A stretch of DNA of 35,374 nucleotides from Acidobacteriota bacterium (GTDB lineage: Bacteria > Acidobacteriota > JAAYUB01), in assembly GCA_029565065.1 (NCBI GenBank), contig JAKQOW010000070.1:1-35374 (forward strand). The letters run 5' to 3'. Below the pieces are notes generated by a model, which worked only from the letters and a program-made list of their open reading frames with translations, was not told the DNA's origin and did not search any database. Both the position numbers and the translations under genes were made by a program. This document shows positions 2,480-30,369 of this stretch, piece after piece. Within the stretch, counting starts at the first letter, position 1. The number at the start of each line of letters is the position of its first letter.

Positions 2480-5400
2480 ATGAAAGCCAAACTGACAAGC
2501 GTCGTAGTGGGCCTCTTGCTGGTTGTGCTGTTTTCCGGCGCAGCCGGGGCGCAATCATCGCTGACCGTCGAGCCCATCACCTGGGACGTCATCGGGCTGG
2601 ACAGCAACTCACCGACCGCCGGACCCAAGTACTTCCCGGTGGGGGTCCGGATCACCAACACCGGCGCATCCACGTCCGGCGTCCTGACGGCGACCTTCGT
2701 CTGGGACTCGTCGAACTCCTACATCAACCTGCGGCCGAATACCCTGTCGACGCTCGATCTCGGCACACTGGCGGGGAACGGAGGCTGGGTCGACGCGTAT
2801 TTCGAGGTCGAAGTCACCCAGGACACGGCTGCATATGAAGCCTCCCGAAGCTACCACATCAGCGTGGCTGAAGGCGGAACCTGGAACGCCAACTCTCCGA
2901 TCCGGGCCCTGTACGTGGAGCATCTGGTCTCCCAGGGCCGCAACGACGTCACCAACATGTATCTCAGCGTGACAGAGCCCCCCACGGAGGGGCCTTACGG
3001 TACTGAAATTCCCAACGGCGGCAGCATGACCCTGATGGTGGGCAACACCTACTGGATCACGCTGGAGGCCTACACGGCCACCAACGGGTACGAGCAGCTC
3101 GAGAGTTTCATCAACTTCCCCAACATCATCTTTCAGATCCTGGACGTCACCACGACCTACACGGCGGATTCCTCGACTAATGTAGAGAATCCCAGCGACA
3201 AGTTGTATGGCGACGGCTGCGTCTGGGACAGCGACCCGACATCCCCCAACTACTTGAGTTGCCTGAGCACCGGCAAGGTGGGCGGCGATCTGATCACGAT
3301 ATACGAAGTCAAAATACTGCAGATCCCCGACGCCCCGCGAACCAACCCGGAGCCCCTCACCACCCTGATCTACGACTTTTCGGGCAGCAGCTTCCACTAC
3401 AACTCCGATTTCGGCGGCGAAACCCGCTACGCCACCATCATCAGCGCCGGCATCGAGAAGTCCTTCGCGCCCAAGTCCATCAATCCCGACACTGTGCCCG
3501 CCGGGACGTCCACGCTCACCTTCACCATCACCAATCCGGGTACGACCACGATCACCGATGTAAGTTTCTACGACGACCTGCCCACCAACGGCGGCACCGG
3601 GCGGATGCGCCTCGCCAGCACCACCTTTACCTACGGTGGCAGCTTCAGCGTCAACCCCACGCCGGACCCGTTAATGACCGTGGGCGGCACTTGGCTGTCT
3701 TTCACCGGTGCGGAGATTCCCGGCCTGAGTTCCGCCACCATCGCGGTCACCGTCACCGTCGACGAAGCGGGCACCTACCACAACGTTTCGGATAACCTGT
3801 TCATCGACTCGACCATCGACACCGGCGACTGGGCCGAGGATACCCTGGTGGCCACGAACAAACCCCCCGGACCCTCGACATGCGATCCTCGCTCCGTGCT
3901 GGCCACCTGGACAATGCCAACCGGGAGCACAACCTCGCCTCCGCCTTACACCACCATAGCGGCGGATGTCGCCGAGGCCACGGCCAACTACTTGGGGGGA
4001 ACGACCGTCAGGATCAGCACAGCTGAGGGGAACCCCGTCAATTCTTGGGAAATTTTGGGAGGCTGGGAACTGATCGGCACCTTGCCCAACGCGAACGCCA
4101 GCCCGTATTTTCAGTTCCAAGTGGACACCAGCAATTATGGCGGCGCGGCCATTTCGTTTGACATCAAGATCGATCCGCCGGGTGCCTGGCAGAGCGCCGG
4201 AGCAGATAATATCATCTACGTGTACTCCTCGGCCGATGGATCGACTTGGAACAATATTGGCAGCTTTGAGGGAAGTAAAGGAAAATGGGTCTCGTCCGGG
4301 ACGCTTCCGGCTCTGCCTCTTGATGGTGGAACGGGGGTCGTCTACACGTACTTCCGGATCAACGCGAAAGGAGCGGCGACCAGCGCCGCCACGGTTTTAA
4401 TCGATAATGTCACCGTCTACGGTTGCCCGCGGCCGGACCCGCCGACGCTGGCTAAAACCTTCTCGGACGTATCGATCTGCCAGGGCGACTATAGCGAGCT
4501 GACCTTCACCTTCACCAATCCCAACGCCACCTCGCTCACAAACGTTGAGTTCACCGACGTCCTGCCAGTGGGTCTGGAGATCAACAATCCCAACGGCACC
4601 CCCACGGTATCCTGCACCACCGGCTCGAGCACCGGCCACACCATCACCGCCGTCGCCGGCACCCGGACGATCAGCATGACCGGCGCGACGCTGGCCGCAA
4701 ATTCCAGCTGCAGCTTCACGGTGTACGTCAAGGGCGCGGCCGCGGGGAGCTATGTCAATACCAGCGGCAGCATCTCCTCCCTCTATACCGGCCCCAATAA
4801 CACCGACACCGGCTACGGCACCGACAACTTGATAGTGATCGCTACGCCGGTGATCAACAAGACCTTTGGCACGACCAACCTGATCACCGGTGAGACCACC
4901 AGCCTGACCTTCACCATCACCAACCCCAACGGTGCCACCGAGCTGACGGGCGTGGGCTTCACCGACACCCTGCCTTCCGGGCTGGATGTCACTTCCGACA
5001 CTGTGACTCTTCCCTGTAATGCAAGTGGTACTCTCACCCTGACGGACAACAATCCAAACCCGGATACGATTGTATTGAGCGGTGCCACCCTGGCCGGGGG
5101 CGGTTCCTGCACCTTCTCGGTCGATGTCACCGGGACCACCGCCGGCACGTATGAGAACACGGTGCAGGTGACCTCCGCTGGAGGCTGCACGGGCAACACG
5201 GCCTCCGCCACGGTGATCGTCAGAGACCTGATCAGCTCGCTCGCATTCCAGAAACAAATTAGCACGTCGTCCAGCGGGCCGTGGTACGACTACATGACGG
5301 TGGCCGTCGGCACGCCACTCTACTACCGGTTCCTCGTGGAAAACACCGGTGAGACGGCTTTGACCAATGTGACGGTGAGCGACCCAAGCCTGGATCCCTT

Positions 5401-6073
5401 CTCCTGCACCTGGCCCTCGCCGCTCCCGGTGGCGGTCGCCGGCAACGACAATCACATCGCCTACTGCGTCCCCACGAAAACGGTCACGGCGGCACTCGGC
5501 GGCCCGTACACGAACACAGCCACGGTCACGGCCGATTATCCCACCAGCCCGCCTCAGCTCACTGCAACGGATATCGCCCGATATGAAGGGCAAAATCCGA
5601 CGGCGGTGGTCATCGGCCGAGTCGCTCTCGGCTACGCGCGGGTCACGGACTTTCTCCGCAGCATCGGCGTGCCGGAGATCGGCATCGCCGAGCTGCAGAA
5701 CATCCTGCGCGTCTGGGCGCCGGATTCCCCAGCCGGGGAGAGCACCGACCGCCAGGAATTGCTGGACGCCCTGATGGCTTACCTCGATCCGGACGGTGAC
5801 GGCCGGGTGGTGGTGTTCCGCTGGGAAACGCTGGAGGAGCGGGGCGCCATCGGGTTCTACGCCGACCGGCTCACCGACGGGACCTGGGTGCGCATCAACG
5901 CCGGGATGCTGCCCGGCCTGATCGCCTCGCCCATGGGGGCGGAGTACTGGCTGGCGGACCCGGGCGCCTCTCCGGGCAATGACTACGTGTACCGGCTGAT
6001 CGAAGTCGAGGCGCGCGGCACGACCCGTGAATATGGTCCGTTCGACCTGCGCGTCGAAATCCCGCTGCCGTAA
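2480..6073 (+). CDS. Secreted multi-domain DUF11 repeat protein
   Basis: This 1197-aa exported protein starts with a signal peptide (about residues 1-24, ending A-G-A-Q). At least four immunoglobulin-like DUF11 modules are recognisable near residues 333-440, 663-760, 801-905 and 940-1020. They carry the recurring L-T-F-T-I-T-N-P and F-T-D-x-L-P motifs. Residues about 470-650 look like a beta-sandwich (galactose-binding or concanavalin-like). A D-P-D-G-D-G calcium-loop-like motif near residue 1100 precedes a terminal fibronectin-like module with the pattern W-E-T, G-F-Y, Y-x-Y-R-L. No sortase, PEP-CTERM or type IX sorting tail is obvious. The protease gene starts 15 nt downstream, so the two probably form a transcription unit. 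A role as a surface or adhesive protein, or as substrate or partner of that protease, is inference. Confidence 0.85.
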   Translation: MKAKLTSVVVGLLLVVLFSGAAGAQSSLTVEPITWDVIGLDSNSPTAGPKYFPVGVRITNTGASTSGVLTATFVWDSSNSYINLRPNTLSTLDLGTLAGNGGWVDAYFEVEVTQDTAAYEASRSYHISVAEGGTWNANSPIRALYVEHLVSQGRNDVTNMYLSVTEPPTEGPYGTEIPNGGSMTLMVGNTYWITLEAYTATNGYEQLESFINFPNIIFQILDVTTTYTADSSTNVENPSDKLYGDGCVWDSDPTSPNYLSCLSTGKVGGDLITIYEVKILQIPDAPRTNPEPLTTLIYDFSGSSFHYNSDFGGETRYATIISAGIEKSFAPKSINPDTVPAGTSTLTFTITNPGTTTITDVSFYDDLPTNGGTGRMRLASTTFTYGGSFSVNPTPDPLMTVGGTWLSFTGAEIPGLSSATIAVTVTVDEAGTYHNVSDNLFIDSTIDTGDWAEDTLVATNKPPGPSTCDPRSVLATWTMPTGSTTSPPPYTTIAADVAEATANYLGGTTVRISTAEGNPVNSWEILGGWELIGTLPNANASPYFQFQVDTSNYGGAAISFDIKIDPPGAWQSAGADNIIYVYSSADGSTWNNIGSFEGSKGKWVSSGTLPALPLDGGTGVVYTYFRINAKGAATSAATVLIDNVTVYGCPRPDPPTLAKTFSDVSICQGDYSELTFTFTNPNATSLTNVEFTDVLPVGLEINNPNGTPTVSCTTGSSTGHTITAVAGTRTISMTGATLAANSSCSFTVYVKGAAAGSYVNTSGSISSLYTGPNNTDTGYGTDNLIVIATPVINKTFGTTNLITGETTSLTFTITNPNGATELTGVGFTDTLPSGLDVTSDTVTLPCNASGTLTLTDNNPNPDTIVLSGATLAGGGSCTFSVDVTGTTAGTYENTVQVTSAGGCTGNTASATVIVRDLISSLAFQKQISTSSSGPWYDYMTVAVGTPLYYRFLVENTGETALTNVTVSDPSLDPFSCTWPSPLPVAVAGNDNHIAYCVPTKTVTAALGGPYTNTATVTADYPTSPPQLTATDIARYEGQNPTAVVIGRVALGYARVTDFLRSIGVPEIGIAELQNILRVWAPDSPAGESTDRQELLDALMAYLDPDGDGRVVVFRWETLEERGAIGFYADRLTDGTWVRINAGMLPGLIASPMGAEYWLADPGASPGNDYVYRLIEVEARGTTREYGPFDLRVEIPLP

Positions 6074-6088
6074 CGGGAAGGAGCGAAC

Positions 6089-8428
6089 ATGAACGCGAAG
6101 GGAAAAACCATGAGGAACATACGTCGGCTGTTGCAGGTGGTCGTCTGCGGGCTCGTGCTCGTGTTGACACCGGTCATGGCTGAATCGGCGCCACCGGCGA
6201 GCGGGAACTCCCACGAGCTGGTTTGGGATTCCTGGCAGCCGCTGGCCGGCGGGTACATGGCGCGGCGCCGCGTGCCGGCGCGCCTGGAACTGCCCGTCGA
6301 GGCGCGGCGCGCGCCCGCCACGCAATCCCGCACGCAAGTGGATACGTTCAACAAGGCCTCGAGCGAGCTGTCGCTCTGGCTCTACACCGGTGTGCCGGGG
6401 ATGTACAGCGTGGGCCTGGACGAGGTCGCCGCCGAGACGGGCATCAGCGTCAAATCATTGCAGGTGGCCGCAAAATCCAGGCGGCTGGGCCTGACCAACG
6501 CGGGGCGGGACGTGCCCTACTATTACGACTCGGCGTACCAGCGCCTGCTGTTCGCCGGCGAAGCCTACACCACGTTCTACACGGACGAGAATGCCTACCG
6601 GCTGGTGACATCCCAAAAACCGCACCCGCGCCTGATCAGCACCGTTAATGCTCGTCCGACGGAGCTGCCGCCCGGTCAGTCACAGCCGTTTCGCGAGGTG
6701 CTGCAGTTCGTCGAGGAGACGGACATGATGTACAGCACCTGGCTGTACCCCGGCGACCCGGACGCCCGGTACTGGTTCTGGGACTACCTGTACGGCTCGT
6801 CCAGGCCCCAGATCCAGCTCTCCGTGCACGTTCCGAACCCGGCGCCCGACGGCACCGCCCGGTTGCGGGTGAAGTTGCATGGCTTCACCGACCAGTACAC
6901 CGGCGACGAACATCGGGTGTACGCGAAGCTCAACGGCGTTCCGGTGGGTTCCGAGCTGGTGTGGGACGGCCTGGCGCCGGCGGAGCTGGTGGCGGAGTTC
7001 AACCCGTCGCTGTTGCAGGCCGACGGCGACAACACCCTGACGCTCCACACCGTGTACGATACGGCGCATCCCTGGCCGGGGCAATTTCTGGAGTCGGTCG
7101 CAGTGGAGTACGACCGCCTGCCCGTGGCCACCGACGGGCAGATTTGGCTGCGTGACGTGACCCAGGGGCTCCAGGAGGTGACGGGTTTTTCGAGCCCGGA
7201 CATCCTCGTGGTCGAGTCGCCGGTTCAAAACGCCATCCTGCGGAGCGATGCCTACATTCACCCGAGCGACGATGGAACGTGGGCCGTCACCCTCAATACA
7301 AGATCAGGCAAGGACTATCTGATCGCCGAAGCGCCGGCGTTCTTGGGTGCGGCGTTCGACGCCCGTCCGCAGGCGGATCTTAATGCGCTCCGGCCGGGGG
7401 CCGACGTCCTGATCATCGCCCCGCGCGAGTTTGCCGGGACCGCGCAGGACCTGGCCGAGTTGCGGCGCGCCGGTCACGCCGAGGCCGCGGTTGTCTGGCT
7501 GGACGACATCTACAAGTCCTTCAGCGCCGGGCGGGTGGATCCTTACGCCATCGGCCAGTTCATGGACTGGGTTCGGACCGAGTGGAGCCGGGTCCCCGCG
7601 GCGGTGACGCTCATCGGCAAGGGTTCGCTGGACCGGAAGGATTGCATGGGGTACGGGGACAATTTCCTCCCGGTCCTCATGACCTCCACCCCGTGGGCGC
7701 TGGCCGCGTCCGACAGCCGGTTGCTCGGGATCGACGACGGCGCGACGCCCATGGCCGTGGGCCGGATCGCCATCACCAACGACGGCGAGGGCCGCGCCTA
7801 CGTGAACAAGCTCCGCGCGCACGCGTCAAGGGATAATACCCAGGCGGCGGAACGGGCCCTCGTGGTGGCGGACAATCCGGATTCCGGCGGCGCCTTCCAC
7901 CAGGATGGCGACCGGTTGGCCGTGCGGTTGCAGGACCTGGGGGTATGGTGGGTCGAGACACTGTATCATCCCACCGACCCGGTGCGCGCCACCCTGATCC
8001 AGTCGGCGGTTTGGGAATCCGGTCTGATCTCCTTCAGCGGCCACGGTTCGGTGGCGCAACTGGGCACCAACGCGGAGAAATTCCTCAGAACCAGCGATGC
8101 CGCCGCGTTGCGCAACGGTTCCTGCCCGGTGTTCCTGGCCCTGACGTGCGCGGCGGGCGATGACTCCCTGCCCGGCGTCCGGTCGCTTTCGAGCACCCTG
8201 GTGCTGAACCCGCAGGGGGGGGCCGTCGCCTCGCTGGCGGCCTCCGGGCTGTCGTTCAATTCGGATGCCCATGTCCTGGCTCACGCCTTCATTCAACACC
8301 TCTACGGGAGCCATATCAACGTCGGGGAGGCCCTGGTGGGCGCGAAGCAGGACACCGCCGGACAGATCGCGGTGTTCATGGCGCCGCTCTATTCGATCAT
8401 CGGCGACCCTTCCGTGTACCCATGGTAG
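6089..8428 (+). CDS. Secreted C25 (gingipain-family) cysteine protease
   Basis: This is a 779-aa protein with an N-terminal signal sequence (hydrophobic stretch about residues 12-30). ATG 6089 is supported by AAGGAG about 7 nt upstream; ATG 6110 is an alternative. The C-terminal half matches peptidase family C25. His652 lies in S-G-H-G-S, Cys687 in L-T-C-A-A-G-D, and a pro-domain-like beta-rich region comes before them. Both catalytic residues are present, so it should be active, probably in the periplasm or outside the cell. There is no obvious C-terminal sorting domain. It follows the DUF11 gene closely and ends 96 nt before the putative precursor peptide. It may process the DUF11 protein or take part in maturing the exported peptide; both are inference. 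Confidence 0.88.
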   Translation: MNAKGKTMRNIRRLLQVVVCGLVLVLTPVMAESAPPASGNSHELVWDSWQPLAGGYMARRRVPARLELPVEARRAPATQSRTQVDTFNKASSELSLWLYTGVPGMYSVGLDEVAAETGISVKSLQVAAKSRRLGLTNAGRDVPYYYDSAYQRLLFAGEAYTTFYTDENAYRLVTSQKPHPRLISTVNARPTELPPGQSQPFREVLQFVEETDMMYSTWLYPGDPDARYWFWDYLYGSSRPQIQLSVHVPNPAPDGTARLRVKLHGFTDQYTGDEHRVYAKLNGVPVGSELVWDGLAPAELVAEFNPSLLQADGDNTLTLHTVYDTAHPWPGQFLESVAVEYDRLPVATDGQIWLRDVTQGLQEVTGFSSPDILVVESPVQNAILRSDAYIHPSDDGTWAVTLNTRSGKDYLIAEAPAFLGAAFDARPQADLNALRPGADVLIIAPREFAGTAQDLAELRRAGHAEAAVVWLDDIYKSFSAGRVDPYAIGQFMDWVRTEWSRVPAAVTLIGKGSLDRKDCMGYGDNFLPVLMTSTPWALAASDSRLLGIDDGATPMAVGRIAITNDGEGRAYVNKLRAHASRDNTQAAERALVVADNPDSGGAFHQDGDRLAVRLQDLGVWWVETLYHPTDPVRATLIQSAVWESGLISFSGHGSVAQLGTNAEKFLRTSDAAALRNGSCPVFLALTCAAGDDSLPGVRSLSSTLVLNPQGGAVASLAASGLSFNSDAHVLAHAFIQHLYGSHINVGEALVGAKQDTAGQIAVFMAPLYSIIGDPSVYPW

Positions 8429-8524
8429 GTATGCGGCGGACGGAGCAACTGCAGCGATTAACGACAAGCCGGATTTGATTTTGCCCGGCAACCATGTATG
8501 ATGTTGAAGAAGAGGAATAAACGA

Positions 8525-8740
8525 ATGACCGAAAGCAATATCAACGAAACCCGGTCGAATCAGATCCGGCCATCCGGGAATCCGGGGGATGCGTCTGCCG
8601 GCGAGGCGCGACGGCCCTATACTCCGCCGCGCCTCCTCAGCAGCGAACCCCTTGAACTCTCCGCGGGGACTTGTGATCCGGCGTATGGGGGCTTCGGAAA
8701 GAGTTATCCTTCATATACGTGTCAAAAAGCAGGCTCGTGA
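8525..8740 (+). CDS. Putative RiPP precursor peptide (71 aa)
   Basis: The start at ATG 8525 is chosen because GAGGA lies 8 nt upstream; ATG 8498 would add nine mostly basic residues. The N-terminal part is polar and poorly ordered. Mid-peptide it has P-Y-T-P-P-R-L, resembling the Y-x-x-P-x-L leader motif bound by PqqD-like recognition domains, then L-E-L-S-A-G. The last 23 residues are T-C-D-P-A-Y-G-G-F-G-K-S-Y, then P-S-Y-T-C-Q-K-A-G-S: two Cys, three Tyr and several Gly, a plausible modified core. Its stop overlaps a GTG of the next gene (GTGA at 8737). No family is recognised by name. The call rests on size, motif and neighbours (HprK-like, PqqD, radical SAM, S26-like). Confidence 0.65.
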   Translation: MTESNINETRSNQIRPSGNPGDASAGEARRPYTPPRLLSSEPLELSAGTCDPAYGGFGKSYPSYTCQKAGS

Positions 8741-8751
8741 AGACAGGAGTC

Positions 8752-9669
8752 ATGGTTGAAATATCTCAACCGTGGGGCCCGGAGTCCATCTGTCTTCACT
8801 TGCCCATGTGCCGGGTGTCGATCCAGGGATTGACCCCCGGGCAACGGCAGACCATTTTTCACAACTACCAACAGTATATCCCCGGCCCCGGCGAGACGGC
8901 CGGCGGGAGTGATTTGATCTGCCTGGCCGGCCGTCTGGATGGACCTATCGGGCTGCCGCCGGAGCGCTTCGCGGCCGGCGGTCAGTACGCGCCGCTGAAA
9001 CGGCGCACGAGCGGAGGGATCGAGATTACGGGCTTCGATTTCAGGGCGCAGCTCGCCGGCGGCGGAGCGGAGCCGCTGCGGGCTTCCCTGGCGGTGGCCG
9101 GGGAGGAGGATCTGGGCCGGCCGTTTGCCCTGGAGAACTTCCTGCGAATCGTGTTCGCCTACCATGTCCTCAACCGGGGAGGGCTGCTGCTGCACAGCGC
9201 CGGTGTGGTGTACCGGGGCGCGGCCTACCTGTTCAGCGGCCGCTCCAACGCCGGCAAGTCCACGCTGTCCCGGAAAGCGGCCGCGGCCGGCGCCGCCGTG
9301 CTGAGCGACGACATCAACCTGGTGTATCGGGAAGACGATGGCTATCACGTCCACCGGGTGCCGTTCACCGGCGAATTCCGGCGCCCCGGGGAGAGCTTTT
9401 CCGGATCCGGGACCTTCCGGCTCGGCGGCCTCGCCCTGCTGGAGAAGGCGCCGGCCCTGACTGCCGCCCCGATGCAACCCGCCGAGGGCGTGGCCGGGCT
9501 CCTCACCGGTTGCCCGTACGTGAACGACGATCCCGAGGAGTTGCCCGCCTTGATGGATATCTTGACGCGGCTCGTGTCCCATGCCCCGGTGATCCGCCTC
9601 GGCGTTGCCCGCGACGACTCCTTCGAGGCGATCATGGCGGCCCTGCTGAGGTGCAGTGAAAATGTCTGA
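8752..9669 (+). CDS. HprK-like P-loop protein of a peptide-maturation cassette
   Basis: This 305-aa protein has a Walker A loop F-S-G-R-S-N-A-G-K-S-T with Lys169 (from ATG 8752), followed by a second acidic motif L-S-D-D. This is the arrangement seen in HPr kinase/phosphorylase-like proteins such as ScmC and the HprK-related kinases found beside PqqD genes. The N-terminal 120 residues are a family-specific domain. The sensor and regulatory parts of true HprK are not evident, so a role in carbon catabolite control is unlikely. It probably binds or phosphorylates a partner in the cassette. ATG 8752 has AGGAG very close upstream; GTG 8737, overlapping the precursor stop, is an alternative. The end overlaps the PqqD gene by 8 nt. 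Confidence 0.78.
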   Translation: MVEISQPWGPESICLHLPMCRVSIQGLTPGQRQTIFHNYQQYIPGPGETAGGSDLICLAGRLDGPIGLPPERFAAGGQYAPLKRRTSGGIEITGFDFRAQLAGGGAEPLRASLAVAGEEDLGRPFALENFLRIVFAYHVLNRGGLLLHSAGVVYRGAAYLFSGRSNAGKSTLSRKAAAAGAAVLSDDINLVYREDDGYHVHRVPFTGEFRRPGESFSGSGTFRLGGLALLEKAPALTAAPMQPAEGVAGLLTGCPYVNDDPEELPALMDILTRLVSHAPVIRLGVARDDSFEAIMAALLRCSENV

Positions 9670-9976
9670 ACCAACCCGAGAATACAAAATCCGCCTGTCC
9701 AGCCGGGTGCGCTTTCGCGACGTGGCCGGTCAGGGCGTGCTGGTGCACCTGGAAGAGGGCCGGGTGCTGGTCGTTAACGACGTGGGGCTCTTCATCGTCC
9801 AGGCGCTCGGCCGGCAGGCGATGACGGAGTCGGAACTGGCCGCGGCGGTGGCGCAGGCCTTTGTTGTCGATGCGGCCCGGGCGCAGTCGGACGTCGCCCT
9901 CTTCCTGGAGCAGTTGCGCGGAGAGAAGGCCCTCCAGACGGTCGGCGGGCCGGACGGCGGTCCAGCCGGAGGGTGA
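9662..9976 (+). CDS. PqqD-family RiPP recognition protein
   Basis: This 104-aa protein has the PqqD/RRE winged-helix pattern: two N-terminal strands (V-R-F-R-D-V, then V-L-V-H-L-E-E-G-R), N-D-V-G-L-F-I-V-Q-A-L, and E-L-A-A-A-V with a following V-D-A-A-R-A-Q-S-D-V helix. PqqD-like domains bind the leader of a precursor peptide and present it to the modifying enzyme. ATG 9662 is preferred to GTG 9656 because GAGGTG lies 8 nt upstream. It overlaps the end of the HprK-like gene and is followed after 6 nt by the radical SAM gene, so it is translationally linked to both. Confidence 0.9.
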   Translation: MSEPTREYKIRLSSRVRFRDVAGQGVLVHLEEGRVLVVNDVGLFIVQALGRQAMTESELAAAVAQAFVVDAARAQSDVALFLEQLRGEKALQTVGGPDGGPAGG

Positions 9977-9982
9977 GCGGGG

Positions 9983-10993
9983 ATGTACCGCCATACGGTG
10001 ATGAAAGCGGTCCGGGCGAATCGCCTGCTCCACGATGTGACCCTGGAGCTCACCTATTGCTGCAATTTTAACTGCTTCTACTGTTACAACGACCGGGACC
10101 GGCAGGGGACGCCGCTATCGCTGCCGCAGTACCGGGTCCTGCTCGAGGACCTGGCCCGCATGCAGACCCTGTTCCTGATGCTGACCGGGGGCGAGCCCAT
10201 GGTCCACCCCCATTTTTTCGACATCGGCAACATGACCCGGGAGCTGGGTTTCGTGGTTCGGATCCGCACGAACGGCCATCTGCTGATCCCTCGCAATGTC
10301 GAGCGGCTGCTCCGCGAGGTGGAACCTTACAGAGTCGAAATCACCCTGCACGGGGCCACCGCCGAAGTGCATGACCGGCAGACCCGCGTCCCCGGCAGTT
10401 TCGAACGCCTGACGGGCAACCTGCGTCACGCGCGGGTGGCCGGCCTGCGCTGCGCCACGGTGGTCACGCCCACCGCCTGGAACGAGCACCAGATCGAGGC
10501 GATGATCGCGCTCGGCGACGAGCTCGGGGCGCCCCTCCGATTTCAAGGGCCCGTGGGTCCGCGGGACAACGGCGACCGGGAGCCTTTGTCCATCCAGCCC
10601 AGCCGGGCCACCTGGGACCGGATCGAGGCCCTGATGGCGGAGCGCCGGGAAAATGTCTCGGTGGAGCCCGAGTGTTCTGTGTCCAAAGACTTCCCGGAAG
10701 CCGATGCCGAAGAAATCGCCTCCTGCAGCGTGGGTTTGGCCGGCGTCGACATCGATCCCTTCGGCAACGTCCAGCCCTGCATGCACGTTCGGGAAGTTGC
10801 GGGGAACCTGCACCAGCAGTCCATTGAAGATATCTGGAACCGCTCGCCCCTGTTCGCGCAGGTCAGGCAACGCGCCGTCGCCGCGGCGTCCAGATGGAAC
10901 GGGGAACGGCCCCGGCAATTTGGCTCGCCGTTGTTCTGTGTGGCCATCGACGAGATGTGCGGCGAGGAAGAGGGGAGGCGTGTCGGACCATGA
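9983..10993 (+). CDS. Radical SAM protein with SPASM/twitch-like C-terminus (peptide modification)
   Basis: This 336-aa protein has the radical SAM cluster motif C27-x3-C31-x2-C34 (within C-N-F-N-C-F-Y-C) and the G-G-E-P motif near residue 70. The C-terminal part has C-S-V-G, then D-P-F-G-N-V-Q-P-C, a G-N-L segment and I-W-N. It ends with two more Cys (F-C-V and M-C-G). This is a twitch or shortened SPASM auxiliary cluster domain typical of PqqE-like and other RiPP-modifying enzymes. The nearby precursor and PqqD suggest it installs a carbon-carbon, thioether or related crosslink on the Cys/Tyr-rich core. The exact reaction cannot be read from sequence. GGAGGG lies 9 nt upstream of the start, and the stop overlaps the next ATG (ATGA). 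Confidence 0.9.
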   Translation: MYRHTVMKAVRANRLLHDVTLELTYCCNFNCFYCYNDRDRQGTPLSLPQYRVLLEDLARMQTLFLMLTGGEPMVHPHFFDIGNMTRELGFVVRIRTNGHLLIPRNVERLLREVEPYRVEITLHGATAEVHDRQTRVPGSFERLTGNLRHARVAGLRCATVVTPTAWNEHQIEAMIALGDELGAPLRFQGPVGPRDNGDREPLSIQPSRATWDRIEALMAERRENVSVEPECSVSKDFPEADAEEIASCSVGLAGVDIDPFGNVQPCMHVREVAGNLHQQSIEDIWNRSPLFAQVRQRAVAAASRWNGERPRQFGSPLFCVAIDEMCGEEEGRRVGP

Positions 10994-11436
10994 ACCCGGA
11001 CCAGTGGAACGCCGCAGCGGGTCCCGGAGGCTGTCTCGCCAAGGCCTTGACCGATGGCGATGAAGCGGTTTTCCATGTGACCGGGGACTGCATGGCGCCC
11101 GAAGTCGACGATCTGGCCGCGGTGCGGGTGAAGCGGGCGCGGTTCCTCGTTCCCGGCGATCTGGTGGCGTTTCGCGATCCGCAGCGCCACCGCCTGGTGG
11201 TCCATCGGTTCCTGGGGTACGTGCGGCGGCGGGGGGAGTGGCGGCTCATGATCAAGTCGGATCGGGGCGCGGGGCCCGATCCCCTGGTGGCGACCGCCTG
11301 CGTGCTCGGCAAGGCGATCGCCCGGGACGGCGAAGCCGTTCGGGTTTCCTTGGCGAAACGGTTGCAGGCGATGGGCCAATATGCCGCCTGGTGCACCCGC
11401 GGCCTCATCCGGCGGGCGCGGCCAACGGCAAAGTAG
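10990..11436 (+). CDS. Small S26-like protein with Cys in place of the catalytic Ser
   Basis: This 148-aa protein belongs to the same S24/S26-like group as the N-terminal domain at 181. The S-M-A-P nucleophile motif reads G-D-C-M-A-P, with Cys34 (TGC at 11089-11091). The later motifs are conserved: P-G-D-L-V-A-F and L-V-V-H-R-F with His72. A Cys/His dyad could still be catalytic, or the protein may be a non-cleaving relative. No transmembrane helix is seen. The ATG overlaps the radical SAM stop, and a GAGGGGAGG stretch lies 10 nt upstream. It probably acts on the precursor, for example as leader peptidase or accessory factor (inference). The stop codon TAG lies in the first bases of a REP-like sequence. 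Confidence 0.8.
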   Translation: MNPDQWNAAAGPGGCLAKALTDGDEAVFHVTGDCMAPEVDDLAAVRVKRARFLVPGDLVAFRDPQRHRLVVHRFLGYVRRRGEWRLMIKSDRGAGPDPLVATACVLGKAIARDGEAVRVSLAKRLQAMGQYAAWCTRGLIRRARPTAK

Positions 11437-11444
11437 CGCCCGCA

Positions 11445-11530
11445 GTAACGCCCGTCCGCCGGACGGGCGTCGGGACACGCAACAGAAAGTAGCGCCCGTC
11501 CGCCGGACGGGCGCCGGGACACTCGGCAGG
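11445..11530 (+). repeat. Tandem REP-like units (family C), perfect stems
   Basis: Two head-to-tail units (11445-11488 and 11489-11530) begin GTAACGCCCG and GTAGCGCCCG. They carry perfect palindromes with arms CGCCCGTCC/GGACGGGCG around GCC at 11449-11469 and 11493-11513. The tail GACACTCGGCAGGAAGTG matches the family C block at 1749. Confidence 0.75.
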
Positions 11531-23434: not shown

Positions 23435-24019
23435 TCAGGCCCGCATGTTGCGGATGATGGACATGCTCATCTCGTGCAGGTTCTTCTGCAGGTTGCTGAG
23501 CAGCTCCGTCATCTGCGTGAACTTCGCCATCGCAAACTGGATTTGCTGGAGGTCGCTCTGGTATGTGGGGCTGTCGGGATTCAGGTTGTTGATTTGGGAT
23601 TCGATATTGGCATACATCGAATCCACCATGCCGGCCATGGTGCTGACGATGTTGTTGGGGCCGCCGCCCACTCCGCCGCCGGCATTGACCGCACCGCCGA
23701 CGCCGCCCTGCACGATGCTGAAGGGAGCGTCCAACGGCAGGATGTTCATGGGCAGTGGGGGCATCGGGCTGGCCTGGATGGGCCCGAAGCCGCCGATCAT
23801 GCTGCCCACCATGTCGGGAATGGTTTGCATCGGACTGAAGAACATGTCGGTGATCCCGCCGGCCACGTCACCCACCGTGCTGCCGACGGAGCTGATGCCG
23901 TCCCCCACCCAACTGATGGCGTCGCCCACAATGGGGATGCCTACACTGTCGATGGCGTCGCCCACCATGTCGATGGCGCCGCCGACGAAATCCGCCACGC
24001 CGCCGATCACGTCACCCAT
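23435..24019 (-). CDS. Gly-rich protein with type III needle-like C-terminus
   Basis: In this 194-aa protein, residues 1-60 are a repetitive, hydrophobic, Gly-rich segment in which V-G-D-A-I or close variants recur (V-G-D-A-I-D-S-V-G, V-G-D-A-I-S-W-V-G, V-G-D-G-I-S-S-V-G). Residues 60-110 are Pro/Met-rich. The last 55 residues form two helices around N-P-D-S-P and end in S-I-I-R-N-M. The order (acidic turn, D-L-Q, helix, then L-H-E-M-S-M-S-I-I) parallels YscF/PrgI needle subunits, where D-N-P is followed by D-L-Q and a closing I-L-Q-K helix. There is no signal peptide. ATG 24019 has AGGAGG 5 nt upstream. A role as exported needle- or translocator-like protein with the TPR protein as chaperone is inference. 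A generic membrane-active protein is an alternative. Confidence 0.7.
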   Translation of the reverse strand: MGDVIGGVADFVGGAIDMVGDAIDSVGIPIVGDAISWVGDGISSVGSTVGDVAGGITDMFFSPMQTIPDMVGSMIGGFGPIQASPMPPLPMNILPLDAPFSIVQGGVGGAVNAGGGVGGGPNNIVSTMAGMVDSMYANIESQINNLNPDSPTYQSDLQQIQFAMAKFTQMTELLSNLQKNLHEMSMSIIRNMRA

Positions 24020-24258
24020 ACGCACCTCCTTGGGACCAACTGTTTAAATTGTCCTGTTAGAATTCCCAATTTGCCGTTTTCACAACAATATTGGGGAAAA
24101 TCTGGAGCGCGACTTTCCCGGGGACATCGATCACCGACGGCTCGCCCACGGACACCGAAAAGTCACACCGTGCGGAACGGGGCATCACCGACGCGAAACG
24201 CTCGCCCCGACCGGCTTCTGCACACCTAGGCCCCCTCCCCGCCTTGTGGGATCCGGTG

Positions 24259-24267
24259 TGATACAAT
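24259..24267 (+). promoter_or_regulatory. Extended -10 promoter candidate for the kinase receptor gene
   Basis: TGATACAAT at 24259-24267 matches an extended -10 (TG, one base, TACAAT). No good -35 lies at the right distance. The start near 24274 would leave about 28 nt before ATG 24303 and would exclude the longer GTG start at 24246. Confidence 0.4.
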
Positions 24268-24302
24268 GCAATCTTCTCATCCTTGTTACAGGTTCACCGA
24301 TT

Positions 24303-27300
24303 ATGGTGAAAACCATCCCCAAGCTCTGCGTGCTCCTGGCCCTGCTGGCAGGCGCAGCCGCCGCTGGGAAGCCGATTCCCGATTGCCGATTCGATCACCT
24401 CGGGGTGGCGGAGGGATTGTCGGAAAGCGCCGTCACCGCCATCATTCAGGACAGCCGGGGATTCATCTGGATCGGCACGCACGACGGCCTCAACAAGTAT
24501 GACGGCTACACCTTCACGGTGTATCGGAGCCAGCCCGGGAATCCCGACAGCCTGTCCGACAACGCCGTCAGCACGTTGTGCGAGGATCGGGATGGAATGC
24601 TCTGGGTTGGCACCATCGGTGGGGGCCTGACCCGCTTCGACCCGAACCGTGAGACATTCAGCCGACCCCGATTGGCCGGCCGAAATCCGGTGGAAACCAG
24701 CCGTGATGTCATCGGTGCCATTATCCAGGATCGCCGGGGGAGGATCTGGATCGGTCATGGAGGCGGCATCGACCGCGGCGCACATCACCAGACCCCTTCC
24801 CAGAGCCGTTTCCTCCGAATTTCGACTCTGACGGGGCGTCTGCTGGAAGATCCGGCCGGCAGCGTGTGGCTGATCGTTGGGTCGAACCAGCTGTATCGGT
24901 TTGACGAAGATTCCGGACGATTCGATCCGTTTCCGCTGCGCCTGCCGGCGACCACATCCGGCGCACCGATCCGGGAGTTGGTGTATCTGGAGGGGACAGG
25001 AACGCTTCTCGTGTCGGCCGCTGATCGGTTGTATACGTTCAGCCTTGTCCAACGCCGGCTGCTCGATGAACGGGAACCCCTCGTGATTCCGGCGACAATT
25101 CGCCTGCGCGGCTTGAGCGGCGGGGTGGAAGATGAATCCGGAAGAATTCTGCTTGGCACCTTCGGGAATGGAATCGTCGAAATCGAACGGCGGGACCGGA
25201 CCGTGCGGCAGCGGATCCACGATCCCAACGATCCCTGGAGCCTGAGCAACAACGATGTGGTCCGATTGATGGCCGACCGGTCAGGCATCATCTGGATCGG
25301 GACGGAGGGCGGCGGCGTCAATCTGATCAAGCAGGCCAAGTATAAGTTCACGCACCATCGGCACCGCCAAGGTGTTCCGAACAGCCTCAGCGGTAACTAT
25401 GTGACCGCGATCCGCAAGGATGCGTCGGGTGATCTGTGGGTGGGTACCGGTGGGATGGGCTTGAACCGAATCAACGAGGCGGAGGGGACTTGCTCGGTCT
25501 ACCGTCATGATCCGCAACGTCCGGAAACCAGCCTCAGTCACGACTACATCACGTCGATATCCGAAGCGGCTGAATCCGGCCAGTTGTGGATCGGTACGCG
25601 GGACGGATTGAACCGCCTCGATATCCGGACCGGAGCATGCCGCCAGTACAAACATGACCCAGACCGGCCGGGAAGCCTCCGGCGAAATGACATTCACAAC
25701 ACGTTCCTGGATCGCCATGGTGATCTGTGGGTCATCGCCTACCTGTATCTGGAGCGGTTGCCCCGAGGCCGATCGGAGTTTGTCCACTATCGACACGATC
25801 CGACACAAGCGACGACCATCAGCGACGGGCCGGGCTATCCCATTTTCGAGGACGGTGCGGGAACCATCTGGATCGGATCGTGGTGCGGCGGACTCAACCG
25901 GTACGACCGTCCGACTGACACGTTTGCGCATTACACCCATCAGCCGGATGATTCGGCCAGTCTGAGCCATGACCGGGTGTGGGCCATCCACGAGGATAAG
26001 CGGGGTCGGATGTGGATCGGCACATATGGCGGGGGACTCAACCGATTCGATCGAAACAGCGGGATTTTCAAGCGGTACCTGGATACGGACGGGCTCGCCA
26101 GCAACGTGGTGTACGGGATCCTGGAGGATGAGACGGGATGTCTGTGGCTGAGCAGTAACAACGGGCTGACCCGATTCAATCCCGAGACGGGGGTGTTCCG
26201 GATCTACGACGTGCATGACGGACTTCAGGGCAAGGAGTTCAACACCCGGGCCTTCTATAGGGACAGAGAGGGGAACATGTACTTCGGCGGCACCAACGGC
26301 TACAACGCCTTCCACCCCGGGTCCCTCCCCGTCAACTGCCATCCGCCGCCCGTGGTGATCACGTCGATCACCGTCGGCGGACGGCGCGTCGTCCCGGCGG
26401 CCGCCACCATCTCTCTGGGGTACGACCAGAATTCAGTGGCATTCGAATTCGCCGCGTTGGATTACAACTGCCCGGCGAAAAACCGGTATGTTTTCAAGCT
26501 GGAGAACCTGGATGCGGACTGGAACCAGGTGGGAGCCGACCGCCGGTTTGCCGATTACCGGAACATTCCCCCGGGCGAATACACCTTCCGTGTCCGGGGT
26601 TCCAACCACGATGGCGTTTGGAACGAGACGGAAAGCGACGTGACGCTGCGCGTGTCGCCCCCCTTCTGGGAGACCTGGTGGTTCCGGGCGGTAGCCCTCG
26701 TCGCCTTCGGCTTCTGCTTTTATGCCCTGGTCGCATTTCTGAAGCGGCACTTCGATCTCATCCGGTTCTGGAAGACGCGGAACGTCATCGGGGACTACAT
26801 CGTGACGCACAAGATCGGCAGCGGCGGAATGGGTGTGGTGTATAAGGGCGTCAGCCGGAAAAACCGATCCCGGGTCGTCGCATTGAAGGTCTTGAACGAG
26901 GAGCATGCCCTGGCCGAAAACCAGCGCCGCCGGTTCCTCAATGAGGGCGCCATCATCGACAGCCTGGACCATCCCCACATCGTGAAGGTCTACCAGCGGG
27001 CGAGCCAGGGCAACAACCTCTACATCGCCATGGAATACCTGGATGGCCTGACGCTGCAAGATAAACTGGCTCGCGACGGGAAGCTCATCCTGGCGGAGGC
27101 CGTCGACATCATGTGCCAACTCGCCGACGTGGTCGCGGCCGTCCACCAAAAGGGCGTCATCCACCGGGACCTGAAACCCGAAAACATCATGTTGGTGCAA
27201 CAGGAGGACCGCGCAAACTACGTGAAGATCCTCGATTTCGGCCTTGCCATCATGAAGAACGCCACCCGGCTCACCCGGTCCGGCATGTTCATGGGCACGG

Positions 27301-27611
27301 TGGGCTACACGCCGCCGGAGCAGGTGTCCGGATACGGATACAACTTTTCCGGAGACATCTATTCCCTGGGAGTGATCTTCTACGAAATGGTGACCGGCGA
27401 GCAGCCGTTTTTCGGCGAGACCTCGCTGGAGATCATCAAGCAGATTCTCAACGAGGAGCCGGTCGAGCCGGTGGCTTTCAATCCTGAGATCCCGGCGGCA
27501 TTGAATGCGCTGATCCTGAGGTTGCTGAGCAAGGATCCCGGCCGCCGACCCACCGCGGCCGATTTGCGCACAACGATGCCGCGGATGATGGCGGACCTTC
27601 AGTCGGTGTGA
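24303..27611 (+). CDS. Hybrid receptor: periplasmic propeller + Y_Y_Y + TM + Ser/Thr protein kinase
   Basis: This 1102-aa protein has a signal peptide (about residues 1-20). About a dozen two-component regulator propeller repeats cover residues 30-670 (the I-W-I-G-T, G-G-G-L-x-R-F-D pattern). They are followed by a Y_Y_Y domain (about 695-780), one transmembrane helix (about 790-815) and a protein kinase domain (about 830-1100). The kinase has G-S-G-G-M-G near 838, V-A-L-K-V-L, the catalytic loop H954-R955-D956-L-K-P-E-N and D978-F-G, so it should be active. This extracellular layout is well known from hybrid two-component systems, where a histidine kinase follows. Here the output is a Ser/Thr kinase. 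ATG 24303 begins a good signal sequence. The 3' end overlaps the convergent sigma-54 activator by 13 nt, suggesting a functional pair. The ligand may be a glycan or other extracellular polymer (inference). Confidence 0.92.
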   Translation: MVKTIPKLCVLLALLAGAAAAGKPIPDCRFDHLGVAEGLSESAVTAIIQDSRGFIWIGTHDGLNKYDGYTFTVYRSQPGNPDSLSDNAVSTLCEDRDGMLWVGTIGGGLTRFDPNRETFSRPRLAGRNPVETSRDVIGAIIQDRRGRIWIGHGGGIDRGAHHQTPSQSRFLRISTLTGRLLEDPAGSVWLIVGSNQLYRFDEDSGRFDPFPLRLPATTSGAPIRELVYLEGTGTLLVSAADRLYTFSLVQRRLLDEREPLVIPATIRLRGLSGGVEDESGRILLGTFGNGIVEIERRDRTVRQRIHDPNDPWSLSNNDVVRLMADRSGIIWIGTEGGGVNLIKQAKYKFTHHRHRQGVPNSLSGNYVTAIRKDASGDLWVGTGGMGLNRINEAEGTCSVYRHDPQRPETSLSHDYITSISEAAESGQLWIGTRDGLNRLDIRTGACRQYKHDPDRPGSLRRNDIHNTFLDRHGDLWVIAYLYLERLPRGRSEFVHYRHDPTQATTISDGPGYPIFEDGAGTIWIGSWCGGLNRYDRPTDTFAHYTHQPDDSASLSHDRVWAIHEDKRGRMWIGTYGGGLNRFDRNSGIFKRYLDTDGLASNVVYGILEDETGCLWLSSNNGLTRFNPETGVFRIYDVHDGLQGKEFNTRAFYRDREGNMYFGGTNGYNAFHPGSLPVNCHPPPVVITSITVGGRRVVPAAATISLGYDQNSVAFEFAALDYNCPAKNRYVFKLENLDADWNQVGADRRFADYRNIPPGEYTFRVRGSNHDGVWNETESDVTLRVSPPFWETWWFRAVALVAFGFCFYALVAFLKRHFDLIRFWKTRNVIGDYIVTHKIGSGGMGVVYKGVSRKNRSRVVALKVLNEEHALAENQRRRFLNEGAIIDSLDHPHIVKVYQRASQGNNLYIAMEYLDGLTLQDKLARDGKLILAEAVDIMCQLADVVAAVHQKGVIHRDLKPENIMLVQQEDRANYVKILDFGLAIMKNATRLTRSGMFMGTVGYTPPEQVSGYGYNFSGDIYSLGVIFYEMVTGEQPFFGETSLEIIKQILNEEPVEPVAFNPEIPAALNALILRLLSKDPGRRPTAADLRTTMPRMMADLQSV

Positions 27612-29407
27612 TTCGGGCGCCGGATCCCCAATCGCTTCATCTTTTCATGCAGGCCCCGGTAGGTCATGTTCAACTGCCGGGCCGTCTCGGACTTGTTCCA
27701 GCCGTTCTGGGCCAGCAGCCGGGTCAGCATCTGTATTTCGATTTGCGGATCGGCTTTTGGAATGATGACCACCGGCGGACGGTCCGTCGAGCCGGCTGTC
27801 CCCTTGATGGAGTCGGAGAGCAGGTCGAAACCGATGGCATCCCCATCCTCAGCCAGGTTGACCAGGCTGTGGATCTCGTTTTCGAGCTCCCGGACATTCC
27901 CGTCCCAGGCGTGGGCCAGCAACGCGGCATAGGCCTGAACCGTGTAGCCGTTGATCCGTTTTTGGTCCAACCGGCAGAACGTGTCGGTGAAATGATTGAT
28001 GAGGAGCGGGATGTCCTCTGTGCGCTCGCGCAACGGGGGGATCGTCATCGTCCGGTGGACGAGGCGGTAGTAGAGATCCTTGCGGAATGTGCCGGTGGCC
28101 ACCATCCCCTTGAGATCTCCGTTGGTGATGGAGATGATCCGCAGGTCAACCCGGATATGCCGGGTGCCGCCCAGGCGGTAGTACTCCTGCTCCTGTAAGG
28201 CCCGGAGCAACTTGCTCTGCAGATCGGCGGACATGTTGCCGATTTCGTCCAGCACCAGCGTGCCGCCCGACGAGATCTCCAGTTTCCCCTTTCGCGGACT
28301 GACCGCCCCGGTGAACGCGCCTTTCTCATAGCCGAACAGTTCGGATTCCAGAAGGTTTTCCGGAATGGCCGCGCAGTTGATGGCCACGAACTCCCCGCCG
28401 GCCCGCCGCGAATATTGGTGGATGAGTCGGGCGAACAGCTCCTTGCCGGTGCCGCTCTCGCCCTGGATGAGGATGAACAGGTCGCTGCGGGCGAACTTCT
28501 TGGCCTGTTCGATCAGCCGCCGAATGCCGGGATTGCCGGCGACGATGTTGACGGTGGCTGCGGTTCCTGGTGCTTCTGCCTCGGGCATTGGCGGATCACC
28601 ACCCAATACATAGGCCAGCAGCCTCAGCTCCTGGGCGAGCAGGGCGACGAATTCGGCCACTTGCCGCTCCAACCGGTTGTCGGCGGGCGTCAGGCAGACC
28701 AATGCGAACGGGATGCCAGTCACGGCAAACCGGTGGGATTGGAAGCACCCGCCGCCGTCCCGGAGCTGCCGGCTGGGGATATCCGAGATGAAGAGGTCCG
28801 GGTTCTCAGCCGCGACGGTTTTCACCGTCGCGAATCCGCCGGTTTGGCCATGGACCAGAAGGTGAATCCGGAATTCGTCTCCGTCGTGTGACAGGAGGAC
28901 GAAGCCGCCGTCCCGCAACAGCCCTGTCAGGATCCGCGAGAGCCGGGTGATGAATGTGTGAAAATCACGGCAACCCATGCCCTCCCGCAGGACAGCCTTC
29001 AGTGCTTCGGCATAGAGGTCGGCTTCGATCCTCGTTTTTCCCGTCCGGGCCTTGCTCTCGTTGTCCAGCCGGAGGTTGTGGAAGACCGGCGTCAGTTCCT
29101 GCGCCGTCTCGAACTCGTCCAGGTTGCCGGCACGCAAGAAGAATTCCAGCCGGCCGATGCTGAATGATCCGCCGATGGCCAACTCGGCCTGGCGGACCCG
29201 CTCGCCGGCGACGAAGGTACCGTTGGAAGAATCCAGGTCCCGGATTCGGATGGAATCGCCCGCAACCATGACAGCCAGGTGCTTGCGGGACAGGAACTCG
29301 TCGTCGATGGTCAGATCGTTCCCGGCATCTCGGCCGATGGTCACCTGCGGCCGGTCCAGGGGGAATTTTCTGACGAAACCGTCCAGGTAGTACAACAAGT
29401 AGTTCAT
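27599..29407 (-). CDS. FHA-domain sigma-54-dependent transcriptional activator
   Basis: This 602-aa protein has an N-terminal FHA domain (about residues 20-95, with I-G-R, S-R-K-H and S-S-N-G-T motifs) that binds phosphothreonine. A GAF-like region follows (about 120-270), then a sigma-54 AAA+ domain (about 290-520) with Walker A G-E-S-G-T-G-K-E and the sigma-54 contact loop G-A-F-T-G-A. It ends in a Fis-type helix-turn-helix ([11 protein letters not shown]). ATG 29407 is chosen because the FHA domain begins there; no strong ribosome site is visible, and 29461 is an alternative. An FHA input means a Ser/Thr kinase should control it, and one is encoded convergently with a 13-nt overlap. A sigma-54 promoter candidate at 29599-29615 lies in the divergent region upstream. 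Confidence 0.93.
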
Positions 29408-29598
29408 GTGGATCGGATGGTACCAGATCACATGTAAAAAATCATATGAAACAAACGGCAAAGCTGTGAAGCAATTTCATAGTGCATGGCCTGAACCACA
29501 CTCCCATACGTGCAGTTTGACGGACACGCCGTATTAATGTTCTCGCAACCAACTGAAAATAATATTGAATTCACGACATATTCTCCCGAGCCGATTAT

Positions 29599-29676: not shown

Positions 29677-30369
29677 GTGATGATCCCGAAGACACTTGCA
29701 ATCGTTCTGGTGGGGTTGGTTGGGTCGGTCGCCGGTTTGGCTGCCGACTGCATCAGCCTGCCGCTGGCGCCTCAAGACTGGCAGCAGGCGGAGTTTCACC
29801 ACGGGTCCCTGGAACCGATCCCGGACGGGCTCTTGCTGCGGGGCGACGCCTGGACCAACGCCCGGAACCAGAGCGGCCGCATCGACGGCAATCACGTGCG
29901 TTCCGCCAGCCCATTCGATCTCCGCGGCGGCGGTGACGTCTATCTCGTCTTCGGCGTGGACGGGGGCGGTCAATACATGGCGGTTTTCCCGCTCCTGTTC
30001 TCCGGCGTGAGCGTGCCCCACCTGACGACGCACCACTCCTTCAGGGGCAGCGTGGTGCTGCCGGAAAAGCAGTGGCTGTATGCCCAGCTCCACGTAGACG
30101 CGTCGGGGAAATACCAACTCACCGTCTGTCAGAACACGTTCTTCGACCAGGACGGACGGGTGTTGCTCGACCGTACCGGAAAACTGACATCCCTGACCGG
30201 CCGCGTGGAATTCGCCTTCGCGGATAACTATGCCGGACCCGATGCGTTCGTGGTCATCCGAAAAGCCATGGTCTGTCCGTCCGGCAGCCGATGCACCCGA
30301 AGCGGTGGCGGCGATGGCGGGGGTCTCGAATCTGTCGCCACTGCCGGCGGCGGCGGTCCGAACTGGTGA
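29677..30369 (+). CDS. Exported protein of unknown function, paralogue of the 34588-35374 protein
   Basis: This 230-aa protein has a signal peptide (about residues 1-22). The central 150 residues are a beta-rich domain, possibly a jelly-roll, with P-H-L-T-T-H-H-S, V-V-L-P-E-K-Q-W-L and D-N-Y-A-G-P. It ends in a Ser/Gly-rich tail (residues about 200-230). The central domain is closely similar to that of the partial gene at 34588-35374, but the two C-terminal repeats of that protein are missing here. The start is GTG 29677 (GAGG about 10 nt upstream) or ATG 29680. The sigma-54 candidate lies about 60 nt upstream. I do not recognise the family. Confidence 0.75.
   Translation: MMIPKTLAIVLVGLVGSVAGLAADCISLPLAPQDWQQAEFHHGSLEPIPDGLLLRGDAWTNARNQSGRIDGNHVRSASPFDLRGGGDVYLVFGVDGGGQYMAVFPLLFSGVSVPHLTTHHSFRGSVVLPEKQWLYAQLHVDASGKYQLTVCQNTFFDQDGRVLLDRTGKLTSLTGRVEFAFADNYAGPDAFVVIRKAMVCPSGSRCTRSGGGDGGGLESVATAGGGGPNW

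Follow-up and report, generated by a model that had tools for sequence, protein, structure and literature searches.

We analysed a 35,374-nucleotide stretch of DNA from an Acidobacteriota bacterium (GenBank assembly GCA_029565065.1, contig JAKQOW010000070.1, positions 1 to 35,374 of the forward strand; hereafter the window), in which a gene for a small peptide lies between a C25 peptidase gene and a set of apparent peptide-maturation genes. Comparison with related genomes indicates that positions 2480-11436 are one conserved module, made up of the C25 peptidase, a large passenger protein, the precursor of a ribosomally synthesized and post-translationally modified peptide (RiPP) and its maturation genes. 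The latter include a PqqD-type RiPP recognition element (RRE) and a radical S-adenosylmethionine (SAM) protein. The features of the module are the following.

2480-6073, + strand: large surface-type passenger protein, 1197 aa, with DUF7933/DUF11/DUF7507 repeats (Pfam) and a conserved C-terminus
5549-6070, + strand: conserved C-terminal module of the passenger, ~165 aa, aligned in 8 loci
6089-8428, + strand: C25 (gingipain/PorU-type) peptidase, 779 aa; PF01364 at 9e-50, GHG His652 and Cys687 conserved
8525-8740, + strand: precursor peptide, 71 aa; homologues in the same place, no Pfam or NCBIfam family
8609-8635, + strand: leader recognition-type motif R-R-P-Y-T-P-P-R-L; Y32 and P35 invariant in 13 precursors
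8672-8737, + strand: likely core C50...K59...C66...S71 (C-terminal); pattern kept across precursors
8752-9669 (alternative GTG start at 8719), + strand: HprK-like kinase, identified by sub-cut-off profile matches and conserved residues
9656-9976 (ATG at 9662), + strand: PqqD/RRE peptide chaperone; PF05402 at 6.4e-13
9983-10993, + strand: radical SAM/SPASM peptide maturase; CxxxCxxC plus C248, C266 and C319
10990-11436, + strand: S26/S24-fold putative cysteine peptidase; C34, H72, D91 and D97

The first-pass annotation, made from the letters of the window, had described a compact RiPP-like cassette at 8525-11436. The five genes it listed, from the peptide to the S26-like protein, lie where it placed them and are tightly packed, with an 11-nt gap, an overlap, a 6-nt gap and a 4-nt overlap between successive members; its boundary did not hold, as the conserved block also takes in 6089-8428 and 2480-6073. 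The order C25-peptide-HprK-PqqD-radical SAM is found in 9/9 close loci, which are assigned to four phyla. Besides the window these are two congeners (L110, L111), Thermoanaerobaculaceae (L031), Verrucomicrobiae (L032), Halioglobus (L033, L035), Candidatus Electrothrix (L034) and a gammaproteobacterium (L036), the taxon labels being assembly titles, mostly of metagenome-assembled genomes in which contamination is possible. The S26-like gene follows the radical SAM gene in 7/9 of these loci; L034 has it elsewhere, and in L031 it is not clearly recognizable. Since some stretches hold only the PqqD, radical SAM, peptide and C25 genes (L116, L117, L123, L124 and L126), the kinase and the S26-like protein look like accessories. 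A second, diverged cassette is present in the genome of the window itself (G000:C163, L169:4035-9738) and comprises S26, HprK-like, a peptide ending in TTPGS, radical SAM and C25 genes, with no PqqD match; its C25 carries half of the passenger's C-terminal module as a fusion. Separately, two different C25-peptide-radical SAM cassettes were observed less than 16 kb apart in a Thermoanaerobaculaceae genome (L220, G199:C376, 3-15982).

By eye, the peptide gene has an AAGAGGA-like site ahead of its start at 8525. When the 71-residue sequence was searched against 5.8 billion proteins, it returned itself and three relatives. Tblastn (E 4e-44 to 3e-5) combined with inspection of open reading frames (ORFs) recovered, at the corresponding position of each of the other eight close loci, a small homologous ORF; that of L031 was missed by tblastn and found by ORF reading only. 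Comparison with the congener G043 gave 8 synonymous and 0 non-synonymous changes, which by a rough estimate of site numbers has a chance probability of 1.6e-5. The first-pass annotation had proposed looking for a small ORF before the HprK-like gene in homologous loci, and for purifying selection on it. The ORF was found there, and selection is apparent against G043, although not against a second congener, G030. That the ORF is spurious has a negligible probability: it is short, fits no family model and shows no constraint against G030, but it keeps its place across phyla and has 979 relatives, on which grounds this explanation was rejected in practice. Because its relatives sit in the same place in other genomes, sequence comparison leads us to conclude that the 71-aa ORF is not a chance ORF.

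Alignment of the precursors yielded the family pattern [KR][KR]xYxxP...E..E..A..C..[K/R]..C...S-end. The Tyr and Pro of the leader motif, invariant in the 13 precursors listed above, are also invariant in a wider set of 30, which bears out the Y-x-x-P recognition-type element within what had been called a Y-x-P-P-x-L motif. The description of the tail as Cys/Tyr/Gly-rich did not survive comparison; what the family shares is two core cysteines that flank a basic residue, and a terminal Ser. Rebuilding the precursor profile brought up shorter relatives of the form MKKxYEKPAIxHTEKLEARAVxCxKxxxxxCxxGPIQS, and a profile of the 30 precursors is matched by 979 proteins at E<=0.01. Among the best 120 of the 979, which are essentially one subfamily, 120/120 end in Ser and 120/120 have C-x-[K/R]-x(4-5)-C. 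From 35/53 loci examined we collected 40 precursors, of which 38 end in Ser, one in Thr and one in Gly-Ser-Ala; a Lys or Arg lies between the first and last Cys in 37/40. These counts are not independent, because the profile was partly trained on sequences later counted and the 53 loci include close congeners. Partial checks on them are provided by the best 120 proteins, by a precursor search of 199 genomes described below, and by a later set of 15 precursors, obtained from 14 of 15 stretches fetched, in which 14 end in Ser and one (L246) in Phe. No NCBIfam or Pfam model fits the 30 precursors, the matches being scattered and weak (best E 0.045). Within the subfamily the core is nearly invariant, and on these alignments it is conserved rather than diversified.

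The domain assignments for the maturation genes are consistent with a RiPP-type cassette. The PqqD match to PF05402, which the first-pass annotation had proposed checking with profile searches, is above cut-off at 6.4e-13, and the radical SAM protein matches Radical_SAM (PF04055, 4e-19) and SPASM (PF13186, 1e-7), both above cut-off. Its CxxxCxxC motif and C248, C266 and C319 line up across the sequences compared (19 in one set, 15 in another); the SPASM match and the three aligned cysteines agree with the auxiliary-cluster C-terminus proposed earlier. With homologous small ORFs found elsewhere, the proposal of a PqqD/RRE and radical SAM cassette with a genuine precursor is upheld. None of the 25 radical SAM maturase models listed reaches its cut-off for this protein (best 25/73 bits), and the best NCBIfam match, mycofactocin MftC, is far below cut-off at 110/265 bits. 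We considered whether the peptide might give rise to a small redox cofactor, as happens in the pyrroloquinoline quinone (PQQ) and mycofactocin pathways, with C25 a mere neighbour. The MftC match, despite its low score, and the nearly invariant core speak for this idea, but the peptide is tied to C25, and in place of the C-terminal Tyr pair of PQQ and mycofactocin precursors it has two Cys and a terminal Ser; we judge a cofactor pathway quite improbable.

The HprK-like protein gave only partial matches far below cut-off to full-length models: ScmC (42.5/125 bits), HprK_rel_B (33/200) and HprK_rel_A. H148, GK(S/T)T and SDD-type residues are hallmarks of HprK, and in an alignment of 15 homologues they are kept in all but that of L031, which has SDE and is missing the first Walker Gly. 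The earlier HprK-like assignment thus stands on its residues and not on its profile scores. The kinship with SynChlorMet cassettes once suggested for the locus is distant only, every Scm model falling far under its cut-off (ScmC as above, ScmD 15/100, ScmE 55/400, ScmF 75/400), and SynChlorMet membership was rejected on these scores. Lasso membership was likewise rejected, as Pfam finds neither an asparagine-synthetase-like cyclase nor a transglutaminase-like B2 peptidase among the 17 window proteins scanned. The weak ScmC match, and the joint occurrence of a YxxPxL-type motif, a PqqD-type protein and a tailoring kinase in lasso loci, as described in the portions of PMC10368454 consulted, are what would favour either system. 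Against the missing cyclase and B2 peptidase and the Scm scores they leave a lasso or SynChlorMet identity highly improbable.

The S26-like protein has weak profile matches only. Its structure model, with a predicted local distance difference test score (pLDDT) of 85, matches signal peptidase and LexA folds in Foldseek, the best match being the human signal peptidase complex (2e-4). The position of the catalytic Ser is occupied by Cys in 11/15 aligned S26-like sequences, including that of the window, and by Ser in 4, as expected from the Cys-type S26 protein of the earlier description. The Lys position varies (Lys, Met, Arg or Cys), and His72, Asp91 and Asp97 are invariant in 12 sequences; a putative Cys-His-Asp peptidase is the natural inference. 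As a separate observation, an S24/S26-like domain of the Ser type (GHSM), fused to a GNAT acetyltransferase, is encoded at 136-1227 of the window, ~5 kb upstream of C25.

The C25 peptidase is apparently intact, with His652 and Cys687 as the conserved residues of its dyad, and, by eye, predicted to be secreted. A C25 profile gave PorU (5e-12) and gingipain R (7e-4) as its best PDB matches. Searched as a single sequence against the PDB, the window protein retrieved a chance designed protein only and the C25 of L037 nothing; the structure model (pLDDT 58.5) is too poor for a structure search.

The precursor and C25 genes are closely linked. Of the 40 precursors, 36 have a C25 in the stretch, on the same strand in 36/36 and within 600 nt in 34/36, the peptide lying upstream of C25 in 20 and downstream in 16. 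The nearest radical SAM gene is on the opposite strand in 5/37, and therefore the peptide and C25 stay paired when the maturase does not. Across 199 genomes of the phylum, C25 is present in 26/28 genomes with the radical SAM family, scored at E<=1e-40, as against 48/171 without it (Fisher p 5e-11, uncorrected for kinship). A precursor search of the same genomes gave 50 matches in 38 genomes, 46 of them strong and in 35 genomes; 29/46 strong matches lie within 6 kb of a C25 domain and 35/46 within 20 kb, and the strand is shared in 35/35 of the latter. A tree of 51 C25 domains has at least seven cassette gains or losses on well-supported branches, which means that the pairing spans or recurs in separate C25 lineages. 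For this tree 60 loci were cut by regular expression and 11 without a usable segment were dropped; two of its rows have long branches, and the cut of L164 is probably wrong. Inspection of 20 further hand-picked C25 stretches found cassette parts or a precursor in L169, L174, L175, L183 and L188 and a weak radical SAM match in L177; several of the rest are short contigs. In four genomes (L234-L237) we also noted, by eye, that the genes after C25 seem to encode an extracytoplasmic function sigma factor, secreted proteins and an anti-sigma-like protein of the zinc-finger type; the precursor there shares the strand of the C25 domain and lies ~9-11 kb away from it.

Together these data suggest an RRE-guided radical-SAM RiPP-type system whose modified peptide may be a dedicated partner of its predicted-secreted C25 peptidase, a tentative reading to which we give somewhat less than an even chance. 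As such a partner the product would bind or regulate C25 or be processed by it. We favour a peptide that serves C25 over an antimicrobial because the core is conserved, no ABC-ATPase signature was found by a crude regular expression in 58/59 loci, and the two genes share a strand.

Several observations weigh against a dedicated partnership. Contact between the peptide and C25 is inferred from gene neighbourhood, and 18/53 loci yielded no precursor. The comparison with G030 (5 synonymous, 14 non-synonymous changes) taken alone gives no constraint, and in the L031 precursor neither the dibasic pair nor the core Lys is present. Among the strong precursor matches 11/46 are without a C25 on the contig, some of them near contig ends. 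Clear orphans, with neither C25 nor radical SAM in the stretch, occur in L239, L240, L241, L243 and L246, and two of the genomes behind the 11 matches (G109 and G176) have no C25 match at all; L246, the only member of the later set without a terminal Ser, comes from a genome with no C25 match, and the L248 precursor was not re-found by the local profile. These orphans suggest maturation in trans or other partners. From genomes without a match to the radical SAM family we sampled 20 C25 genes, of which 13 are without a cassette and 7 have parts of one or a precursor; within the 13, L166 has an S26-like match, and L158 and L159 share a genome whose precursors lie at other places. The S1 Asp of gingipain R, which has a role in specificity, is unmatched in the close clade by profile alignment and its alignment is ambiguous in L117. 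A Lys/Arg preference is therefore unsupported in the close clade, and we do not claim gingipain-like specificity.

Lastly, the terminal Ser is retained in loci without an adjacent HprK-like gene and for that reason is no proof of kinase action. HprK homologues exist elsewhere in all 9 tested genomes of this kind, as they do in 3 controls, although in G100 the sole copy has an in-frame stop and in G010 the match is partial only. We did not accept the residue as proof, and its occurrence in 38/40 precursors is no more than suggestive of phosphorylation of the precursor by the kinase.

Alternatively, C25 may act outside the cell as the processing enzyme of a radical-SAM RiPP of the ordinary secreted kind, removing its leader or cutting its core once exported, with a signal or an antimicrobial as the product. 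Peptidases encoded next to RiPP precursors mostly process them, in some stretches without an S26-like gene C25 is the only protease seen, and the leader Arg of E-A-R-A is invariant in the 88 precursors of 38 residues. However, that Arg is absent at the corresponding position from the window clade, the crude search for a transporter signature was negative in 58/59 loci, the near-invariance of the core within the subfamily is unlike that of arms-race products, and C25 is joined to large passenger proteins. We consider a processing role of this kind somewhat unlikely.

The passenger has an N-terminal hydrophobic segment, recognized by eye, and its N-terminal regions differ between loci (DUF7933/DUF11, Gly_rich_2, F5/8 type C or GEVED). 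It is divergently oriented in L033 and L035, and the gene in G043 has an in-frame TAG. Full-length copies of its C-terminal module were found in nine of 18 genomes searched, one each, with second copies in G201 and G204; these second copies belong to passengers located away from C25 (L217:5698-7791 and L218:6973-7608), whose stretches contain neither C25 nor peptide. Elsewhere the second half of the module directly precedes C25 within one fused protein, namely in L037, L038, L138 (twice), L219, the second locus of L220, and L221; the genome of the window itself has this fusion on two further contigs (L169 and L171), and L238 is a weaker case. Because half of the module is fused to C25 in relatives, there is strong evidence, from gene architecture, that the window genes 2480-6073 and 6089-8428 work together.

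This arrangement raises the question of a PorU-like transpeptidase, in which C25 would remove the passenger module and join the passenger to an acceptor, the peptide being that acceptor or a guide. PorU is the best PDB profile match, the passengers have a common C-terminal module with variable N-termini, and module-bearing passengers also occur away from C25 in L217 and L218. But the NCBIfam PorU model gives the window C25 136/420 bits, far under its cut-off, the module half lies N-terminal to C25 elsewhere and looks like a linker or docking domain, and the peptide is without a visible export signal; we regard a transpeptidase as improbable. SprA, of the type IX secretion translocon, gave no match in 10 genomes, where the controls were equally silent.

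If the modified peptide is indeed the partner of C25, PqqD would bind the RRxYxPPRL leader, and the radical SAM/SPASM enzyme would install a link within the C-x(n)-K-x(n)-C core, perhaps joining Cys to the region around the Lys. A hydroxyl, most plausibly that of the terminal Ser, may be phosphorylated by the HprK-like kinase, and the Cys-type S26 protein, where present, could trim the leader. The roles given here to PqqD and the HprK-like protein are carried over from lasso systems. More speculatively, the constrained loop with its exposed Lys/Arg might occupy the C25 active site or its vicinity in the manner of a canonical protease-inhibitor loop; the peptide would then restrain C25, or serve as its initial substrate, until C25 and the passenger have arrived at the cell surface. 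We take the CxKx5C spacing to recall canonical inhibitor loops and the gene pairing to recall staphostatins. That radical-SAM-locked, kinase-tagged peptides control C25 surface peptidases in four phyla, as staphostatin-like or inhibitor loops made by RiPP chemistry, is in our estimate unlikely. The partnership is held as tentative, and this inhibitor-type form of it as unlikely, because the S1 Asp is unmatched in the close clade and L031 has lost the core Lys.

Several other features of the window were noted. The intergenic DNA at ~11440-11530 contains short palindromic repeats rich in GC, of the type GCCCGTCCGCCGGACGGGC, and the ORF translation at 1517-2182 suggests further copies at that place. 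The ORFs at 29677-30369 (+) and 34588-35355 (-) are similar by eye and likely encode paralogous secreted proteins. Positions 24246-27611 encode a regulator-propeller/Y_Y_Y protein that has a Ser/Thr kinase domain at its end, and the adjoining 27599-29461, on the opposite strand, an FHA/sigma-54 activator. The protein at 23438-24025 (-) matches a type III needle-protein family below cut-off (E 7e-4), probably by chance.

Literature searches of open-licence full text found no description of the precursor/radical-SAM cassette, or of the passenger, paired with C25. The parts are of known kinds, and by the profile searches the precursor family and the maturase subfamily are without a model over cut-off in the libraries searched. 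The cassette thus represents a widespread unnamed peptide family and radical-SAM maturase tied to one protease family, and it suggests a RiPP whose role is to partner a protease, and not to serve as an antibiotic or small-molecule cofactor. If the inhibitor-type reading is true, this precursor family would stand for a RiPP function that is new, the control of gingipain-type surface peptidases. The crosslink chemistry of C-x-K-x5-C, the kinase site, the Cys-type S26 protein and control of C25 by the peptide are testable targets.

Among known systems, SynChlorMet cassettes likewise bring together HprK-like, PqqD-like and radical SAM/SPASM proteins; to our knowledge they have no C25. The tailoring kinases of lasso systems are HprK-like. 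In the parts of the source available (PMC10368454), the YxxPxL leader motif of lasso systems is read by PqqD-type B1 proteins, and lasso tailoring kinases phosphorylate Ser (or Thr) of the precursor, which for ThcoK and SyanK is the C-terminal Ser (PMC10368454, PMC5067487, the latter also in extract). Paeninodin-type and BsfK lasso systems, as portrayed in the same portions of PMC10368454, therefore resemble the present cassette in the YxxPxL motif, a PqqD-type RRE, a kinase beside the precursor and a hydroxyl target, whereas the window has a radical SAM protein, a two-Cys core, and C25 with its passenger, and no cyclase or B2 protein among the proteins scanned. PorU and the C-terminal-domain cargo of the type IX secretion system, in the partial accounts at hand, are similar in that a C25-type enzyme is linked to proteins with a common C-terminal module; unlike PorU, the window C25 falls below the cut-off of the PorU model (136/420). 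Sactipeptides, ranthipeptides and Lys-Trp peptides share with it an RRE and a SPASM-type radical SAM protein beside a Cys- and Lys-bearing precursor, and differ from it in that here the precursor family is unnamed, the core conserved, the partner a C25 peptidase and a transporter signature almost absent. The last comparison is with quinohemoprotein amine dehydrogenase (QHNDH), a periplasmic/exported enzyme whose gamma subunit is crosslinked by a radical SAM protein and loses its leader to a dedicated protease, according to the excerpted text of PMC7876137. Here the partner is C25, the precursor is different and no QhpF-like ABC exporter was seen, and we do not claim membership; in outline, with a crosslinked small peptide whose gene accompanies those of an exported enzyme and of a protease for the leader, the QhpC/QhpD/QhpE system as that text presents it is a functional analogue of the cassette.

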